A stretch of DNA of 49,561 bases from Melioribacteraceae bacterium (GTDB taxonomy: Bacteria; Bacteroidota; Ignavibacteria; Ignavibacteriales; Melioribacteraceae), in assembly GCA_021740785.1 (NCBI GenBank), contig JAIOZI010000035.1:1-49561 (forward strand). Reading direction: 5' to 3'. Of the stretch, positions 41,294 through 49,561 are shown one piece after another. The translations under genes and the position numbers were made by a program. The notes beneath the pieces were generated by a model. It was given only the letters and a program-made list of their open reading frames with translations, had not been told where the DNA came from and did not search any database. The stretch's first letter is position 1. Each line of letters starts with the position of its first letter.

Positions 41294-42184
41294 TCACTTC
41301 AGGAATAAAATTGAAATACCGGCAACTGCGATTACCGCACCGAAAATTGCAGTTGGTGATAGTTTTTCTTTATAGTAAAATCTTACCATCGGCAGCATAA
41401 CAATAGGAACTGTAGCCATCAGCGTAGATGCAATACCAACATATGTGTTGTTAATTGCAATCATTGAAGCAGTAATTCCGAGATATGGACCTAAAATTGA
41501 TGCCGCAATTGTATGCTTCAATGCATACGGATCATTTTTAAACATTCGTACAGGATTTTTAAATTTCCCCATCGAACGAAAAATGATGTACATCAGAACA
41601 GTTGCTGAGAATAATCTAATAAATGAAACAGTGAATTCATTTAACGGCGATTCATTAAATGCCTGCTTTGCAAAAATCAGTCCGGTTGCTTGTCCGGTTG
41701 CTGCTATAATGCCGAAAACGATTCCCTTAAAATTGAAATGTGAACCGGTATTCCGATTCGGGTTTCTTTCAAGCACTACAAGTGAAACACCAATAACCGT
41801 GACAAAAATTCCAACAACTCCCCAAACCGATAAGTATTCATCGAGAAAGATAAATGCAAGCAGTGCAGCAATCGGAGGGGCGAGAGACATCAGCAGCATA
41901 CCAAGCCGCGGACCGATAAGTTGGAATGATTTGAACAAAGCCGTATCACCGATTATTAATCCCAGTACTCCGCTAATCACAAGGTAAATTAATTGGCGGT
42001 CGGAAATATCAAAACTTGCGCCGACTAACAGAGTTGTCAGTAAAAGAAGAATCGAAGCCATAAACATTCGTGAAATATTCACGGCTACCGATCCAATACG
42101 AATAGTTGCTTCGGTCAATACAATGGAATTGGCTGCCCAAAACAACGCAGCAGATAAAGCGGCAATCTCACCAATAAATATCAA
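41294..42184 (-). CDS. EamA/DMT-family transporter
   Basis: 296 aa with about ten membrane helices in two EamA halves (GEIAALSAALFWAANSIVL start; second half GIVFGIIAATGQATGLIFA). The drug/metabolite transporter superfamily exports or imports small metabolites. It starts with TTG, which overlaps the HisIE stop as TTGA, so it is the last gene of the his operon. An amino-acid exporter role is possible by context only; the substrate is unknown. Confidence 0.88.
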   Translation of the reverse strand: MIFIGEIAALSAALFWAANSIVLTEATIRIGSVAVNISRMFMASILLLLTTLLVGASFDISDRQLIYLVISGVLGLIIGDTALFKSFQLIGPRLGMLLMSLAPPIAALLAFIFLDEYLSVWGVVGIFVTVIGVSLVVLERNPNRNTGSHFNFKGIVFGIIAATGQATGLIFAKQAFNESPLNEFTVSFIRLFSATVLMYIIFRSMGKFKNPVRMFKNDPYALKHTIAASILGPYLGITASMIAINNTYVGIASTLMATVPIVMLPMVRFYYKEKLSPTAIFGAVIAVAGISILFLK

Positions 42185-42801
42185 TTTTGTTTTCTCTTAT
42201 CTTGATGTCTAGTAAGTAAATTATTAACAACCTCATTCCATTCAATATTCTTTTCTGCGAGCAGTACAAACAAATGAAAAATCAAATCAGAAGTTTCATC
42301 AATTAATCTAAGATTGTCATCATTTTTGGATGCAATCACTGTTTCAATACTTTCCTCACCAACTTTTTGAGCAATTCTGTCAATCCCTTCTTTAAAGAGT
42401 TTGGTTGTGTATGAATTTTCCGGCATTTCAATTTTCCTGTTTCTAACCAGCTCAAAAAGTTCATTTAAAAATCCGGATTCACTTCTATTTATGCCAAAAC
42501 ATGAGTATTGATCTTTATGACATGTATTCCCTTCGGGCAAAGCATATATTAACAACGAATCATTATCACAATCAATTTTTAGATCAACAAAATTTAGAAA
42601 ATTCCCTGATGTCTCTCCCTTTGTCCATAACGCATTTTTTGTTCTGCTGAAAAATGTAACGTGTTTAGTCTCAATTGTAATGTTGTAAGCCTCCTTGTTC
42701 ATGAATCCAAGCATCAACACTTTCCCGGTTGAGTAATCAACAATAATCGCCGGGACTAATCCATTCATTTTATCAAAATTTATTTCGGCAGTATTAATCA
42801 T
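42181..42801 (-). CDS. hisI: HisIE, bifunctional phosphoribosyl-AMP cyclohydrolase / phosphoribosyl-ATP pyrophosphohydrolase
   Basis: 206 aa. Residues ~1-105 are HisI (VLMLGFMNKEAY, TFFSRTKNALWTKGETSGN, CDNDSLLIYALPEGNTCH). Residues ~110-206 are HisE (ELFELVRNRKIEMPENSYTT, GIDRIAQKVGEESIETVIA). It catalyses steps 2 and 3 of histidine synthesis. The start overlaps the hisF stop as ATGA. Confidence 0.96.
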   Translation of the reverse strand: MINTAEINFDKMNGLVPAIIVDYSTGKVLMLGFMNKEAYNITIETKHVTFFSRTKNALWTKGETSGNFLNFVDLKIDCDNDSLLIYALPEGNTCHKDQYSCFGINRSESGFLNELFELVRNRKIEMPENSYTTKLFKEGIDRIAQKVGEESIETVIASKNDDNLRLIDETSDLIFHLFVLLAEKNIEWNEVVNNLLTRHQDKRKQN

Positions 42802-43553
42802 AACCTGATTTCTATCCCCTTATTGATTAAGAATGATTTTAGATCGCCGATTTTCATTTCACCATAATGAAACAACCCGGCGGCTAAACATGCATCTGTT
42901 TCAGCTTTATGGAATGCTTCGTAGAAATGCATCATGTTTCCGGCGCCGCCCGAAGCAATGATTGGGATTGTAACTTCTTCGCCCAATTTTTTTAGAAATT
43001 CCAAATCATAACCTGAACGAGTTCCGTCTTTATCCATCCAAGTAAGCAATATTTCTCCCGCTCCTCTTTCGCAGACTTCAATGCACCAACTCAAACCATC
43101 TAAGGAAGTTTCTTTTCTTCCCCCTTCAACATAAACTTTATAATTATCACCTGATTTCTTAACATCAATAGCCGCTACAATTGCCTGGCTTCCGAATCTT
43201 TTTGATGCTTCGTCAATTAACCCGGGAGTTTTAACAATCGATGAGTTTAATGATACTTTATCCGCTCCGGCTTTAAGAATTTCATCAATCTCATCAGAGG
43301 ATTTAATTCCGCCTCCAACTGTAAATGGAATTCTGATCACTTTTGCAACTTGTTTAACGAGATCAATCAAAATATTTCTTTTTTCTTGAGTTGCTGTGAT
43401 ATCGAGAAATACAAGCTCATCCGCACCTTCGTCCGAGTATCTTTCGGCAAGTTCAATTGCTGAACCGGCATCTTTCAGATTAATGAAATTAATTCCTTTC
43501 ACGACCCTTCCGTCTTTCACATCCAAACATGGGATTATTCTTTTAGCCAGCAA
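42798..43553 (-). CDS. hisF: HisF, imidazole glycerol phosphate synthase cyclase subunit
   Basis: 251 aa TIM barrel. [19 protein letters not shown] with the catalytic aspartate in [40 protein letters not shown]. It makes imidazole glycerol phosphate and AICAR with ammonia from HisH. The start overlaps the hisA end by 11 bp. Confidence 0.97.
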
Positions 43554-44262
43554 AATTTTTTATCTCCTCAAGTGATATTTTATTCTCATAAATTGCTTTT
43601 CCAACAACAACTGAATGGATGTTCATATTACTGAGTTCGATCAAATCATTAATTGATGAAACACCGCCGGAAGCTGTCAAATTTATGTCCGGGAATTTTT
43701 GCATTATCGTTTTGTATAATTTAGTATTAGTTCCGCCCAGCATGCCGTCTTTACTTATATCAGTACATAGGAAATTATTAAGTCCTAGAGATTGACAATA
43801 TTCAATATGATTATAAATAGAAATTCCGGTATCGACTTTCCAACCCTTTATTCGAACGGTCTCATCTTTTGAATCGACTGCAACTATGAGTTGATCAGAC
43901 CCGGTTATTTGGACACACTGTTCAAACAGGTTTTTATCGGTTATCGATAATGATCCGACTATAAGTTTTTCAACACCAATCTTAACGAGCTGTTCAATAT
44001 CTTTGATATCTCTTATACCTCCGCCAAACTGAATTGATATGTTAAAAGTATTTTTTATTTCCGTAAGTAATTCAAGCGTTGAAATTGAATCATCCTTCGA
44101 GGCAATTAAATCAATAATGTGTATGTGCCTGAAACCATAATCATAAAACTGCTCAATTTGTTGAAGCGGAGAGAACTTATAAAATAATTTGGAATCGTAA
44201 TCCCCTTCGGAAAGTCTTACTACTTTATTATCAATTATGTCAATAGCAGGGATGATCAACAT
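43543..44262 (-). CDS. hisA: HisA, ProFAR isomerase
   Basis: 239 aa TIM barrel. [36 protein letters not shown], and [20 protein letters not shown]. It catalyses the fourth step. The start overlaps the hisH end by 7 bp, as throughout this operon. Confidence 0.96.
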
Positions 44263-44843
44263 CTTTCTATAAAATTCCTCAGCAATAGAATGCCGTTTTT
44301 ACCAGATTTTTCAGGATGAAATTGAACCCCGAAGAAATTATTTTTATTTACGGCTGAACTAAAATTCACATCATATTCACTCGTTGCGATTGTATATTTG
44401 TTTAACGGCACATAAAAGGAATTAGCAAAATAAAAATATTCACCCGATTCAATACCCGAAAACAAAGGATTCTCCCTTTCGACTTGAACTCTATTCCAAC
44501 CCATCTGCGGTACTTTTACATTTGCACTTTTAAATTTCTCTGTGTCGATATCAATTATTCCCAATCCCGAAACATTCCCTTCGATTAACCTATTACAGAA
44601 TATTTGCATCCCCAGACAAATCCCGAGTAACGGACGGTTAAGAATCCGCAGCAGGTTTATAAGATTAAGCATGTGAAGTTTTCTTACTGCCGAAGAAGCT
44701 TCACCAACACCGGGAAATATTATTTTATCGGCTTTGCAAATTTTACCCTCTCTGTTTGTAATCTCAAACTTTTCTCCTATTTCTTCAATTGCATTTGCAA
44801 CCGAAGCAGTATTACCGGCACCGTAATCAATTATAGCAATCAT
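44256..44843 (-). CDS. hisH: HisH, imidazole glycerol phosphate synthase glutaminase subunit
   Basis: 195 aa class-I glutamine amidotransferase. The nucleophile cysteine is in LLGICLGMQIF; the His/Glu pair is in FGVQFHPEKSG. It supplies ammonia to HisF. The start overlaps the hisB stop as ATGA. Confidence 0.97.
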   Translation of the reverse strand: MIAIIDYGAGNTASVANAIEEIGEKFEITNREGKICKADKIIFPGVGEASSAVRKLHMLNLINLLRILNRPLLGICLGMQIFCNRLIEGNVSGLGIIDIDTEKFKSANVKVPQMGWNRVQVERENPLFSGIESGEYFYFANSFYVPLNKYTIATSEYDVNFSSAVNKNNFFGVQFHPEKSGKNGILLLRNFIERC

Positions 44844-45709
44844 AGCGCTCCCTTTGTGGTTGGCAAATTACCTTTTGCTCTCTCATCAATTCTCAAGGCT
44901 TCATTGATTGCTTTTGCAAAAGCCTTAAAAATTGATTCGATTTTATGATGATCATTTTTCCCTTCAGCTTTTATAAATATGTTTGCGCCTAAACTTTGCG
45001 AAACCGACTTAAAAAATTCTTCCGTCAATTCTGTCGGGAAATCACCAACCGTTTCCCTGTTAAACTTACAATTAAAATTCAAGAACGGTCTGCCGCCTAA
45101 GTCAACAGCGCAGCTTGCAATCGAATCGTCCATCGGAAGCATAAACCCGAAACGTTTTATCCCGGATTTGCTTCCTAACGTTTTATTCAAACACTCACCG
45201 AAAACCAATCCAACATCCTCAACCGTATGATGTTCATCCACATTTAGGTCACCATTAACTTCCAATTTTAAATCAATATTTCCGTGCCGGGATATCTGTT
45301 CCAGCATGTGATTAAAAAATCCTATTCCGGTATCACCACCAAATATACCGCTTCCGTCAATATTCATTTCGAGTTTTATTTCTGTCTCTTTAGTTTTTCT
45401 TTCGACTCTTGACGTTCGATCTAAACTAATCAATTCATCAACAAATTCATTAAAATTATTATACTGCTTATCATTATCGATATGAACTTTATCATTCTTT
45501 TGCGTAACAATTAATCCTTCGGAAATATTTAAAGCGGCATTCTGTAATTTGATTCCCTCCGATTTTAAAATCTCATTAATAAGAGGATTCGTGTTATTCG
45601 AATATAAATCAAAATCACTAAGATATAATCTTTTGAGTCCACTTATCAATCCGAAAGAACAATCATTTTTAAAATTCACTAGTGATTCATCAATAAATAT
45701 TTTTTTCAC
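44840..45709 (-). CDS. hisB: HisB, imidazoleglycerol-phosphate dehydratase with degenerate N-terminal HAD-like segment
   Basis: 289 aa. Residues ~98-289 are a full IGPD: FNHMLEQISRHG, DEHHTVEDVG, DDSIASCAVDLGGRPF, and SVSQSLGANIFIKAEGKNDHHK. The first ~95 residues sit where bifunctional HisB enzymes have a histidinol-phosphatase HAD domain, but they are too short. The start (MKKIFIDESLVNFKN) lacks the catalytic DxDGT; only LKRLYLSDFDLYSNN and NEILKSEGI recall the fold. Dehydratase activity is expected, phosphatase activity is not. It overlaps hisC and hisH by 4 bp each. Confidence 0.93.
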   Translation of the reverse strand: MKKIFIDESLVNFKNDCSFGLISGLKRLYLSDFDLYSNNTNPLINEILKSEGIKLQNAALNISEGLIVTQKNDKVHIDNDKQYNNFNEFVDELISLDRTSRVERKTKETEIKLEMNIDGSGIFGGDTGIGFFNHMLEQISRHGNIDLKLEVNGDLNVDEHHTVEDVGLVFGECLNKTLGSKSGIKRFGFMLPMDDSIASCAVDLGGRPFLNFNCKFNRETVGDFPTELTEEFFKSVSQSLGANIFIKAEGKNDHHKIESIFKAFAKAINEALRIDERAKGNLPTTKGAL

Positions 45710-46752
45710 AATATCTCCTCAAGCGCTTCGATGAATAATTCGTTCTCCTTTTCAGTCCCGACCGAAACACGCAGGCATTCAGCCAGCATCGGTTGAGTAC
45801 TTCTATTTCTTATAATAATATTCCGTGCCGTAAGCTTTGTGAAAACCTCATCAGCGTTACTACATTTGAATAGAATAAAATTTGCATCCGAATTAAATAC
45901 TTGTACATATTCAAATTGATTTAACCGCATAACTAATTTTTCTCTCTCTGCAATAATTGAATTAACAAAATCATCCTTCACTTGTGCTTTTTGAATTGCA
46001 GTATTAATAGCATCCATCGTAAGTTTATTTATTGAATAAGGCGCTTTTACTTTGAATAGGATATCTATAATAAACTCGTTCGCAATACAATAACCTGCAC
46101 GAATACCGGCTAAGCCCCAAGCTTTTGAGAATGTTCTTAGAAGAATTAAATTCGGAAAATTCTCAACGATATCAATCGAAGATTTATCAGCGGCAAAATC
46201 AATATATGCTTCATCGATAACAATAATCCCTTCAAAATTACCGGCAAGCTTAACAATATCTTCTCGATCAAGAATGTTTCCAGTCGGATTATTCGGTGAA
46301 CAGAGAAATATCATTTTAGTTGAATCATCTATTTGTGCAAATATTGATTCGGTATCAATTTGGAAATCGTTTGTAAGCAGTACCTTTCTAACGGAAATAT
46401 TATTTATGTCGGATTGAACCTCATACATACCGTAAGTGGGTTGCGGGATTATTACATTATCAATTCCGGGATTACAAAATATTCGTATCAGGAGATCGAT
46501 AATTTCATCGGAACCTACACCGAAAAATATCTTTTTGATGTCAACACTCAAATAGTTTCCCAATGATTTTCTAATTGAAAGCTGAAACGGATCCGGGTAA
46601 CGGTTAAGCTGCAACTCCTCATAGTCAAGTAAAACAGAGCCAATGCTGTTTTCATTTGCATCCAGTAAAATTCCGCTTTGATATTTACTTCGTGCCGACG
46701 AATACGGTTTTAATTTTAGTATATTTTCTCTTACTAATTTTTCCAAATTCAT
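45706..46752 (-). CDS. hisC: HisC, histidinol-phosphate aminotransferase
   Basis: 348 aa fold-type I PLP enzyme. PLP lysine is in LLRTFSKAWGLAGIRAGY; other motifs are DANENSIGS, VGSDEIIDLLIR, FLCSPNNPTGN and IVIDEAYIDF. It converts imidazole acetol phosphate to histidinol phosphate. The start overlaps the hisD stop by 4 bp. Confidence 0.96.
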   Translation of the reverse strand: MNLEKLVRENILKLKPYSSARSKYQSGILLDANENSIGSVLLDYEELQLNRYPDPFQLSIRKSLGNYLSVDIKKIFFGVGSDEIIDLLIRIFCNPGIDNVIIPQPTYGMYEVQSDINNISVRKVLLTNDFQIDTESIFAQIDDSTKMIFLCSPNNPTGNILDREDIVKLAGNFEGIIVIDEAYIDFAADKSSIDIVENFPNLILLRTFSKAWGLAGIRAGYCIANEFIIDILFKVKAPYSINKLTMDAINTAIQKAQVKDDFVNSIIAEREKLVMRLNQFEYVQVFNSDANFILFKCSNADEVFTKLTARNIIIRNRSTQPMLAECLRVSVGTEKENELFIEALEEIL

Positions 46753-48029
46753 AGTCTCACCTTTACGGCTGCGGCATGAGCCTGCAGTTTCTCTGTCTCG
46801 GCAAGAGTGATAACCGAATCGGCAATATTACTCAATCCCTCCTTCGTTAGCTCTTGAAACGAAATACTTTTCATGAATGATTCAACAGTTACCCCACCAA
46901 TAGATTTTGCAAATCCATAAGTTGGAAGTGAGTGATTTGTTCCGGATGCATAATCTCCCGCACTTTCCGGTGAATATTTTCCGAGAAAGACAGAACCTGC
47001 ATTTATAACTTTATCAGAATATTTATCAGCTTGCTCAATGTTTAATATCAAATGCTCGGGCGCAAAATTATTGCTGAATTCAAATGCTTCATTTAGATCA
47101 TCAACTAGGAGAATAAAAGAATTCTTAACGGATGATTTAATAAATTCCTTTCGCTCGAGTTTGTCCGTCTGCTTAAGTAAATCTCTCTCTACATTCACAA
47201 TTAAATTAGAAGAATTTGTAACTAGAATTGCTTGAGAATCATTTCCGTGTTCGAGTTGAGACAGCATATCTGCAGCAACGAATGCTGAGTCTGCACTGTC
47301 ATCTGCAATGATCAATACTTCGCTTGGACCCGCGGGCATATCAATACTGCAGCCGTCAGGGTCTTGACTTACAATCATCTTCGCATTTGTTACAAATTGA
47401 TTACCGGGACCAAATATTTTATCAACTTTTTCGAATTCACCCGAACCATAAGCCATCAGTGCAATTGCCTGCGCGCCACCCAAAATATAAAACTCATCCA
47501 CATTGCATATATGAGCCGCATAAAGTAACGCCGGATTTACATCTCTGGACGAAGATGGCGAGCAAACTACTTTTCTTCTGCATCCGGCAATGGATGCCGG
47601 AATTCCAAGCATCAGCATTGTTGAAGGCAGAACTGCCGTACCTCCCGGTACATACAATCCTACATTTTCAATCGCTCTGAATTCTCTGCTGCAAATTACT
47701 CCCGGAATTGTTTCCACTGAATAATTTTTTGGAAATTGCAGCTCGTGAAATTTTTGTATATTCACCGCCGCTTTATCAATTGCCCTTTTAACTTTCTCAT
47801 CTATTAACTCATCCGCCTTTGCAAGATCATCTTTTGTTAATAAAATATTTTCTTCTGTTAACGCATCAAACTTCCGTGCATACTTCAAAGCTGCTTTCAA
47901 GCCATTTTGCTTTACATCGTTAACAATCACTTTTGTAGAAGAAGTTACTGATTCGTCCTGAAGCGCATTTCTTTTTATAAGATTTGATTTCTCAGATTTG
48001 CTCATATTTTTATAGATATATTTTTTCAT
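46749..48029 (-). CDS. hisD: HisD, histidinol dehydrogenase
   Basis: 426 aa zinc-dependent enzyme for the last two oxidations. Signatures include YVPGGTAVLPSTMLMLGIPA, IFGPGNQFVTNAKMIVS, DMPAGPSEVLIIADDSA, FAPEHLILN and YASGTNHSLPTYG. The start overlaps the hisG stop by 4 bp (ATGA). Confidence 0.97.
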   Translation of the reverse strand: MKKYIYKNMSKSEKSNLIKRNALQDESVTSSTKVIVNDVKQNGLKAALKYARKFDALTEENILLTKDDLAKADELIDEKVKRAIDKAAVNIQKFHELQFPKNYSVETIPGVICSREFRAIENVGLYVPGGTAVLPSTMLMLGIPASIAGCRRKVVCSPSSSRDVNPALLYAAHICNVDEFYILGGAQAIALMAYGSGEFEKVDKIFGPGNQFVTNAKMIVSQDPDGCSIDMPAGPSEVLIIADDSADSAFVAADMLSQLEHGNDSQAILVTNSSNLIVNVERDLLKQTDKLERKEFIKSSVKNSFILLVDDLNEAFEFSNNFAPEHLILNIEQADKYSDKVINAGSVFLGKYSPESAGDYASGTNHSLPTYGFAKSIGGVTVESFMKSISFQELTKEGLSNIADSVITLAETEKLQAHAAAVKVRL

Positions 48030-48886
48030 GATATCATATTCTCAATTGGTAATGAAAGAATTCCCGATGCTCCATTCATTTTTAACTCGTCAATAATCTC
48101 CCAAAATTTGTCAGTCGGAATTACTGCATGTACCGCAAGTGAAGTTTCATCCGCGAGAGGTAAAACGGTCGGACTCTTTAACGACGGGATTATTTTTGTT
48201 ACCGATTCAAGTGATTCTTTCGGGATGTTCATCATTATATATTTCGACTTTCTTGCGGTGAGTGATGAATCAATTCGTTTTAGCAAATTATTATACAAAT
48301 CCGATTTCGAATTATTTAGTGAATTATTTTTTATCAATACCGCTTCGGATTCAAAAATGCACCACCGCTGTTTCAATTTGTTAAATTTCAGTGTGTTGCC
48401 GGTTGAAACCAAATCGCAAATGAAGTCAGCAATTCCTACTGAGGGAGCTATCTCAACAGATCCGCTGATTTGAATTACCTTTGCTGATATTTTATTCTCA
48501 TCGAGAAACTCAGATAAAATATTCGGGTGCGATGTTGCAATTGATTTACCGCTTAATTCTTTCAATGCATCAAGCTGAATATTTTCAGGTGATGCCAGCA
48601 TCAACCTGCATTTACTGAAACCCAATTTTCTTTCGATCGATAAATTACTTCTCTTTTCCCTCACAACATTTTCTCCCACAATTCCGATATCCGCAACTCC
48701 GTCTTGAACATATTCCGGTATATCATCATCGCGAAGGAATAAAATATCAAGATCAAAGTTTCTTGCAGAGACAAATAATCTTTCGTTATAATTCTCTATC
48801 TCCAGACCGCAGCGTTTTAATAATTCGAGAGACTTGTCCGCGAGTCTCCCCTTTTTCTGCACAGCAATTTTCAAGTGTCCGTTCAT
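48026..48886 (-). CDS. hisG: HisG, ATP phosphoribosyltransferase (long form)
   Basis: 286 aa from ATG 48886, chosen because AAAGGAG sits 7 bases upstream; an earlier in-frame start would lie inside the terminator. The N-terminus is KIAVQKKGRLADKSLELLKR, followed by DLVSTGNTLKFNKLK, the phosphate-binding motif of the family. The length and C-terminal ~75 residues (KYIMMNIPKESLESVTKIIP...) match the long form, whose ACT-like domain gives feedback inhibition by histidine. It begins the pathway and the operon, downstream of a His-rich leader and terminator. Confidence 0.96.
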   Translation of the reverse strand: MNGHLKIAVQKKGRLADKSLELLKRCGLEIENYNERLFVSARNFDLDILFLRDDDIPEYVQDGVADIGIVGENVVREKRSNLSIERKLGFSKCRLMLASPENIQLDALKELSGKSIATSHPNILSEFLDENKISAKVIQISGSVEIAPSVGIADFICDLVSTGNTLKFNKLKQRWCIFESEAVLIKNNSLNNSKSDLYNNLLKRIDSSLTARKSKYIMMNIPKESLESVTKIIPSLKSPTVLPLADETSLAVHAVIPTDKFWEIIDELKMNGASGILSLPIENMIS

Positions 48887-48905
48887 TTCAACTCCTTTAA
48901 AACAA

Positions 48906-48932
48906 AAAACCCCGACGAATTCGCCGGGGTTT
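48906..48932 (-). terminator. his operon attenuator terminator
   Basis: In the mRNA, AAACCCCG (from 48932-48925) pairs with CGGGGTTT (48914-48907), and the run continues UUUUUUGUUUU, just ahead of the hisG ribosome site. CCGGCG in its 5' side (48927-48922) is also complementary to CGCCGG in the leader (48972-48967), an alternative antiterminator pairing. Confidence 0.88.
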
Positions 48933-48956
48933 AAAATCAAAAATATGTATTTCTAG

Positions 48957-49028
48957 TTATATCGCTCCGGCGCACCCATATAGTGAATTATGATGATGAT
49001 GTAATATTGCCGAAGTAGTTTTGTACAT
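48957..49028 (-). CDS. hisL: his leader peptide with four consecutive histidine codons
   Basis: 23 codons from ATG 49028 to TAA 48957, preceded by GGAAG. The peptide begins MYKTTSAIL, then four CAT (His) codons in a row, then NSLYGCAGAI. The codons after the His run contain the CGCCGG segment that can pair with the terminator's 5' arm. This is the standard layout of a ribosome-mediated attenuator: stalling at His codons leaves CGCCGG free to block the terminator, while a ribosome that reaches the stop covers it. Confidence 0.9.
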   Translation of the reverse strand: MYKTTSAILHHHHNSLYGCAGAI

Positions 49029-49049
49029 TTCTTCCAAAAAAAATTTCAA

Positions 49050-49080
49050 CAAAAATACAATGTTTTTAATTAAATGCAAA
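49050..49080 (-). promoter_or_regulatory. his operon promoter (Bacteroidota type)
   Basis: On the minus strand TTTG (49080-49077) is followed after 19 bp by TATTTTTG (49057-49050), matching the -33 TTTG / -7 TAnnTTTG pattern of Bacteroidota. The leader ATG is ~22 bp further on. Confidence 0.6.
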
Positions 49081-49561
49081 ATCAAAATTGATAATGTAGG
49101 ACAGAATCGATTTGAGAGAATAATCAATAGACGCTACGGATTTAAAATTGATTTTAGTATACCCTACAGTAGTATTTTCGGCAACATAAAAGAACAACTT
49201 TGCGACAGAAAAACAAATTTTCTTAACATATACAAAGGAATTACCGATTGAATAATACCTTCAATACCGAAAGGAGTAGTAAAATTACCGTATAAAACAA
49301 TAACTTAGCTAAAAGTGGATGTCGTTGAAAAAAAGCGAGAAATTACATATTTGCTTTTGCAATCAACAACAATTTTGTTCTAATTATGTTTATTGCCATC
49401 TTTTGAAAAGATGAGCTATATCTTTTAACCCAACTTGGCCATTAGCAGCAAAAAACCAGTGAAAATCGAGGAAGGTGGCTGCCAAACAATGCGATTATGC
49501 TCCAAAAACGTTGTTGGTGATGCTGTTTCGTGATTGTAGTGAGGTACGGTACTTGTTTCTC
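49081..49561. other. Spacer at the right edge with no supported gene
   Basis: AT-rich. A 63-codon plus-strand frame (from ATG 49060) has no ribosome site and overlaps the his promoter. A minus-strand frame is open from the window edge for 39 codons and then stops. The last ~130 bp are GC-richer and may belong to a neighbouring gene or element beyond the window. Confidence 0.4.

Follow-up and report, generated by a model that had tools for sequence, protein, structure and literature searches.

Attenuation by a translating ribosome is the classical form of control of the histidine biosynthesis (his) operon in Escherichia coli, whose leader carries seven consecutive His codons. According to a paper of 2010, leader-peptide systems had been shown only in the Proteobacteria and the Actinobacteria, ermC apart, to which that paper added the Firmicutes (PMC2965389), and candidate his attenuators are reported from the Bacillus cereus group, Peptostreptococcaceae/Lutispora and Erysipelotrichales (PMC9413887). 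The transcriptome of Flavobacterium psychrophilum strongly hints that amino-acid operons are attenuated by way of leader peptides, and a structured 5' element without an Rfam hit is described before hisG in the Flavobacteriaceae (PMC9723704); leader-peptide-like small open reading frames (ORFs) are known from Bacteroides thetaiotaomicron (PMC7366714). The present analysis concerns the window, a stretch of 49,561 nucleotides (nt) from a Melioribacteraceae bacterium of the Ignavibacteriales (GCA_021740785.1, contig JAIOZI010000035.1), in which a His-rich leader before hisG would, judging from the sequence, control the his operon by ribosome-mediated transcription attenuation of the classical type, as in E. 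coli his; we give this reading a probability of about 0.92.

Organisation of the leader region and the proposed mechanism

The gene hisG (48026-48886, ATG at 48886), which encodes the long form of HisG with the C-terminal domain (TIGR00070 and TIGR03455), is the first of the operon hisGDCBHAFIE at the end of the window, on the minus strand, where the features of the leader region lie as well. It is preceded by a leader ORF of 23 codons (48957-49028; peptide MYKTTSAILHHHHNSLYGCAGAI), which runs from ATG to a TAA stop at 48959-48957, was identified from the sequence and the ORF list and has His-rich counterparts kept before hisG in relatives. Four His codons in a row, CAT CAT CAT CAT (48990-49001), are the putative regulatory codons. 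Between the leader and hisG lies an intrinsic terminator hairpin of 11 pairs with a loop of 4 (48907-48932), with a folding energy of -18.6 kcal/mol, whereas its shuffles average -7.25 (0 of 200 as good), followed by the U-tract TTTGTTTT (48899-48906). The coordinates and the fold bear out the initial annotation, made from the letters alone, in its description of a 23-codon leader with four CAT codons and a terminator with a U-tract before hisG. Upstream of the leader, a putative promoter (49050-49081) was read from the sequence as TTTTG (49081-49077), a 19-nt spacer and TATTTTTG (49057-49050), the last of the form TAnnTTTG, which we take to be a Bacteroidota promoter type.

The alternative pairings involve four segments. 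Segment 2 (CGCCGGAG, 48965-48972), near the end of the leader, contains CGCCGG (48972-48967), the reverse complement of CCGGCG (48927-48922) in segment 3, which is the 5' arm of the terminator (AAACCCCGGCG, 48922-48932). The complementarity noted in the initial annotation is thus confirmed; the two segments would form the antiterminator, and CGCCGG pairs with CCGGCG when segment 1 and the 3' arm are removed from the fold. Segment 1, CTTCGGC (49009-49015), which that annotation had overlooked, occupies codons 5-7 ahead of the His codons and pairs with GCCGGAG of segment 2 (48971-48965) in the minimum-energy folds. Since this 1:2 pairing forms in the free fold, all four segments of a classical attenuator are present, segment 2 having segment 1 or segment 3 as its partner.

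In the proposed mechanism, RNA polymerase would start at the TAnnTTTG promoter and a ribosome would translate the leader behind it. When His-tRNA is ample, the ribosome would reach the stop codon and mask segment 2, located 6 to 13 nt ahead of that codon's first base (48972-48965); the 3:4 terminator would then form and transcription would stop in the U-tract at about 48906-48899. When His-tRNA is scarce, the ribosome would stall on the four CAT codons and mask segment 1, leaving segment 2 free to pair with segment 3, so that no terminator would form and hisGDCBHAFIE would be transcribed. If the leader is not translated at all, the 1:2 hairpin would form and the terminator would remain on. We infer the translation of the leader, the stalling, the termination in the cell, the response to histidine and the role of the 1:2 hairpin from this arrangement, and the his genes are probably switched on when histidine is short.

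Conservation of the leader and co-variation of its arms

The initial annotation had proposed that the hisG upstream regions of related genomes be compared for a His-rich ORF and for co-varying arms, and both were found. Leaders were detected by an automatic rule (an ORF of 6-60 codons with at least three His in seven), which overlooks those with a frame open further upstream (L138, L249) and the results of which vary slightly with the upstream length taken (L107, L116). The 58 genomes of the window's family and order include its own, and 42 of them carry this hisG; a His-rich leader was found by the rule in 40 of the 42, own genome included, and of the two that were missed L138 has a leader by eye and L140 has none. 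Among the named loci, 74 of 80 pass the rule, one of the 74 (L082) being probably a chance ORF. The sample of the phylum comprised 118 genomes, own included, 103 of them with a hisG match; these three locus sets overlap. A leader was present by the rule in 52 of the 59 phylum-sample genomes with a near-type HisG (E below 1e-77), the misses being L114 (the same place as L138), L116, L133, L156, L157, L161 and L165, and in 0 of the 44 with a distant-type HisG (E above 1e-37). The leader thus accompanies hisG of the Bacteroidota type. HisG identities are 58-68% for the 51 best named loci (L031-L081), whose labels are for the most part Ignavibacteria, Ignavibacteriales, Melioribacteraceae or plain Bacteroidetes, and certain leader peptides are common to the window's family (f1) and named Melioribacteraceae loci (L002/L039, L004/L031). 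Ignavibacterium and Melioribacter are reported to have a Bacteroidetes-like hisA that may have been transferred (PMC8305728), which would fit a joint inheritance of the operon and its leader.

Runs of His codons do occur elsewhere in the 4.85-Mb genome, in which four consecutive CAY codons are found at 21 sites on both strands, in many frames, against 4 for a reversed control pattern; the His run might accordingly be an accident, and the hairpin merely a device that ends background transcription. However, a short ORF with at least three His in seven codons lies within 300 nt of hisG in 161 of 217 upstream regions against 107 of 4340 dinucleotide shuffles, and with at least four His in 135 of 217 against 7 of 4340 (duplicates between the sets kept in), which excludes a chance origin of the leaders. 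Segment 2, moreover, follows the terminator arm across lineages, and the accidental reading, to which we attach a negligible probability, is in effect refuted by the comparison with relatives.

The co-variation of segments 2 and 3 was examined in 101 loci, partly by way of an Ignavibacteriales set (L001-L081, L111-L114 and L134-L145), which consists of the window's family and order and the best named hits, some of them labelled just Bacteroidetes or bacterium. Segment 2 pairs with its own segment 3 at a mean of -13.3 kcal/mol, compared with -9.5 for swapped and -7.5 for shuffled partners; the own pairing beats its shuffle mean in 99 of the 101 loci, at p<=0.05 in 75. In 10,000 permutations none was as low as the own pairing, either over all the loci, within the 62 loci of the Ignavibacteriales set (-12.8 vs -11.05) or within the 39 others (-14.1 vs -9.3). 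The arms vary by lineage and change together, as in CGCCGG/CCGGCG, GTACCGG/CCGGTAC, GTGTCGG/CCGACAC, GGTAGGCC/GGGCTTAC and CTCAAGCG/CGTTTGAG. Segment 2 starts at a median of 14 nt past the His run and ends between -11 and +7 of the leader stop (5-95% range), a geometry in which a terminating ribosome would cover it, as had been suggested for CGCCGG; leader peptides frequently end in AG-L or CRR, probably as by-products of segment 2. The promoter assigned in the initial annotation also recurs: of the 68 loci in the Ignavibacteriales set, 40 have TTG-N17-23-TAnnTTTG in the 150 nt ahead of the His codons, compared with 1% of mononucleotide shuffles. Anatomy, conserved leaders and co-varying arms together support the reading as ribosome-mediated attenuation.

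Several observations weigh on the other side. The pairing comparison took in 101 of the 133 non-identical leader loci, the 32 omitted being 31 without a terminator by a simple scanner and L082; 26 of the 101 fall short of p<=0.05 for the 2:3 pairing; and the permutations ignore the tree, the within-set test apart. The 1:2 hairpin is weakly supported: it outdoes the mean of its shuffles in 72 of the 101 loci and reaches p<=0.05 in 28. In the window itself, both the 1:2 hairpin and the antiterminator fold are ordinary for their composition, with 28 and 34 of 200 shuffles, respectively, as good.

The simple terminator scanner, which was positive in 102 of the 133 loci, overlooked some hairpins that are bulged or differently spaced (L013, L015 and L033 among them) and was replaced by a fold-based detector run on the non-identical upstream regions with a leader. 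By this detector, the leader is separated from hisG by a terminator in all but one of the loci of the Ignavibacteriales set (67 of 68, exception L141) and in every locus of family f21 (9 of 9), of f16 (3 of 3) and of the other named loci (19 of 19, L082 included). The terminator bears on the possibility that the target of the leader and hairpin is translation, in which case the ribosome on the leader would govern how accessible the hisG start is, through re-initiation or sequestering. It has been proposed that leader ORFs lying near structural genes enhance the translation of these by re-initiation, also in the Bacteroidetes (PMC4833913), and in a larger fold of the window a weak A-U hairpin touches the hisG start region. 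On the other hand, the near-constant hairpin of the Ignavibacteriales set ends, in the window, in a U-tract; the Shine-Dalgarno-like AAAGGAG (48892-48898) and the ATG of hisG fall outside it; and 70 nt separate the stop codon of the leader from hisG, against a peak at 11-14 bp for the Bacteroidetes (PMC4833913). Control at the level of translation is accordingly considered improbable.

Control mainly by a DNA-binding regulator rather than by the ribosome is less probable still. In the Firmicutes, his genes are under the control of HisR, a member of the TrpR family (PMC9413887), and L157 and L161, which belong to the same class as the window, have a YerC/YecD TrpR-related gene (TIGR02531) immediately ahead of a hisG for which the rule gave no His leader. 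The leader anatomy, however, requires no protein, and no YerC/YecD-type ORF lies between the promoter and hisG in the window, the rest of the genome not having been searched for the family. By eye, L093 likewise has hisG without a His leader and a YerC/YecD TrpR-related gene directly upstream; it is possible that the attenuator was swapped for a repressor in these three loci.

The remainder of the operon, identified by NCBIfam matches and ORFs, comprises hisD, hisC, hisB, hisH, hisA, hisF and hisIE with short overlaps (42181-48029, minus strand), and a possible DMT-type transporter gene (42184-41294, minus strand; TIGR00950, below its cut-off) slightly overlaps the end of hisIE. Other amino-acid genes were also considered. 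The upstream region of hisS (27228-26020, same window), a second candidate target, carries no His run when read by eye, and in the same genome leuA gave no hit and ilvB none over its cut-off. Upstream of trpE in this genome (L240, contig C45), a Trp-rich leader MVMINNKGTYNSKTSWSNWAWWWFMS with five Trp codons lies at positions -241 to -163, counted from the first TIGR00564-aligned base, and reading by eye shows a GC-rich hairpin and a T-run between it and trpE. This is likely to be a trp attenuator, and attenuation in the genome thus probably extends beyond his.

His leaders without an intrinsic terminator

Two families have His leaders before hisG and gave no intrinsic terminator by the fold-based detector: f13 (L103, L119, L146, L152 and L248-L276), with 0 of 31 leader loci, and f23 (for example, L098, L101, L121, L124-L127, L129-L131, L147, L148, L279 and L281-L297), with 0 of 33, though the leaders of both are strongly His-rich. 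The f13 leaders resemble those of the named Mucilaginibacter loci L103 and L104, so that f13 is presumably Sphingobacteriaceae, and an f23 leader is common to an Aliifodinibius locus (L115 with L098), so that f23 is presumably Balneolaceae. A terminator was likewise not found in L155 and L162 (f28), L169 (f29) and L123; the third f28 locus, L120, has one by the simple scanner.

Of the 31 f13 loci, 23 have a small hairpin after the leader stop, with the loop UACGU in 17 and UACGC in 6 and with stem changes on both sides, and hairpins like it with other loops are readable in 4 of the remaining 8 (L152, L259, L271 and L273). Many f13 loci have another hairpin, built from the His codons and the bases after them. 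A 19-base pattern of the small hairpin, searched with up to two mismatches, occurs once each in 19 of 31 f13 genomes, the reversed control giving 5 sites; all 19 matches lie just before hisG, and a role of the motif as a general attenuation element is unsupported. In f23, the spacer between the leader and hisG has a high C and a low G content (means 0.25 and 0.10), a composition that may be one for Rho loading.

A tentative explanation, to which we give somewhat less than even odds, is that the His leader travels with the Bacteroidota-type hisG while its output has been exchanged, Rho or another factor acting in f13 and f23. The output in the terminator-less families may be Rho-dependent, with the stalled ribosome shielding the Rho site. 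Control of a his operon by an amino-acid-specific leader that works through Rho or a different factor was not described among the literature matches listed, and the two families make Rho-linked or other leader control in the Bacteroidota directly testable.

Comparison with known systems

Searches against Rfam gave no match of any family at gathering score in the window, the His_leader (RF00514) and T-box families included, nor in 7 other loci; a T-box and a riboswitch are rejected for the window on this result. Among the literature matches listed, none describes a his leader in the Ignavibacteria, though the survey of Lopatovskaya and others (2010) may list cases from the Bacteroidetes. The initial annotation had held such control to be seldom documented in Bacteroidota-like lineages, which is a fair statement but not an absolute one, given the hints before hisG in the Flavobacteriaceae (PMC9723704). 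The element of that study differs from the present one in that no His leader or arms are described, the word 'histidine' is absent from its main text and no Ignavibacteria are covered. The Firmicutes leaders are like that of the window in having three to five consecutive His codons followed by attenuator, terminator and antiterminator structures, but belong to another phylum, the term 'bacteroid' being absent from the main text of that study (PMC9413887).

The his leader of E. coli and Salmonella (RF00514) is similar to the one described here in its run of His codons within a short ORF, its terminator before hisG and its mutually exclusive 2:3 and 3:4 pairings, and probably also in the 1:2 pairing that competes with them. 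Leader annotations are supplied here for many genomes, and textbook his attenuation, usually taught from the Proteobacteria, would be extended to the Ignavibacteria and many other Bacteroidota, the window differing from E. coli and Salmonella in its four His codons in a row, its Bacteroidota-type promoter and its other arm sequences.
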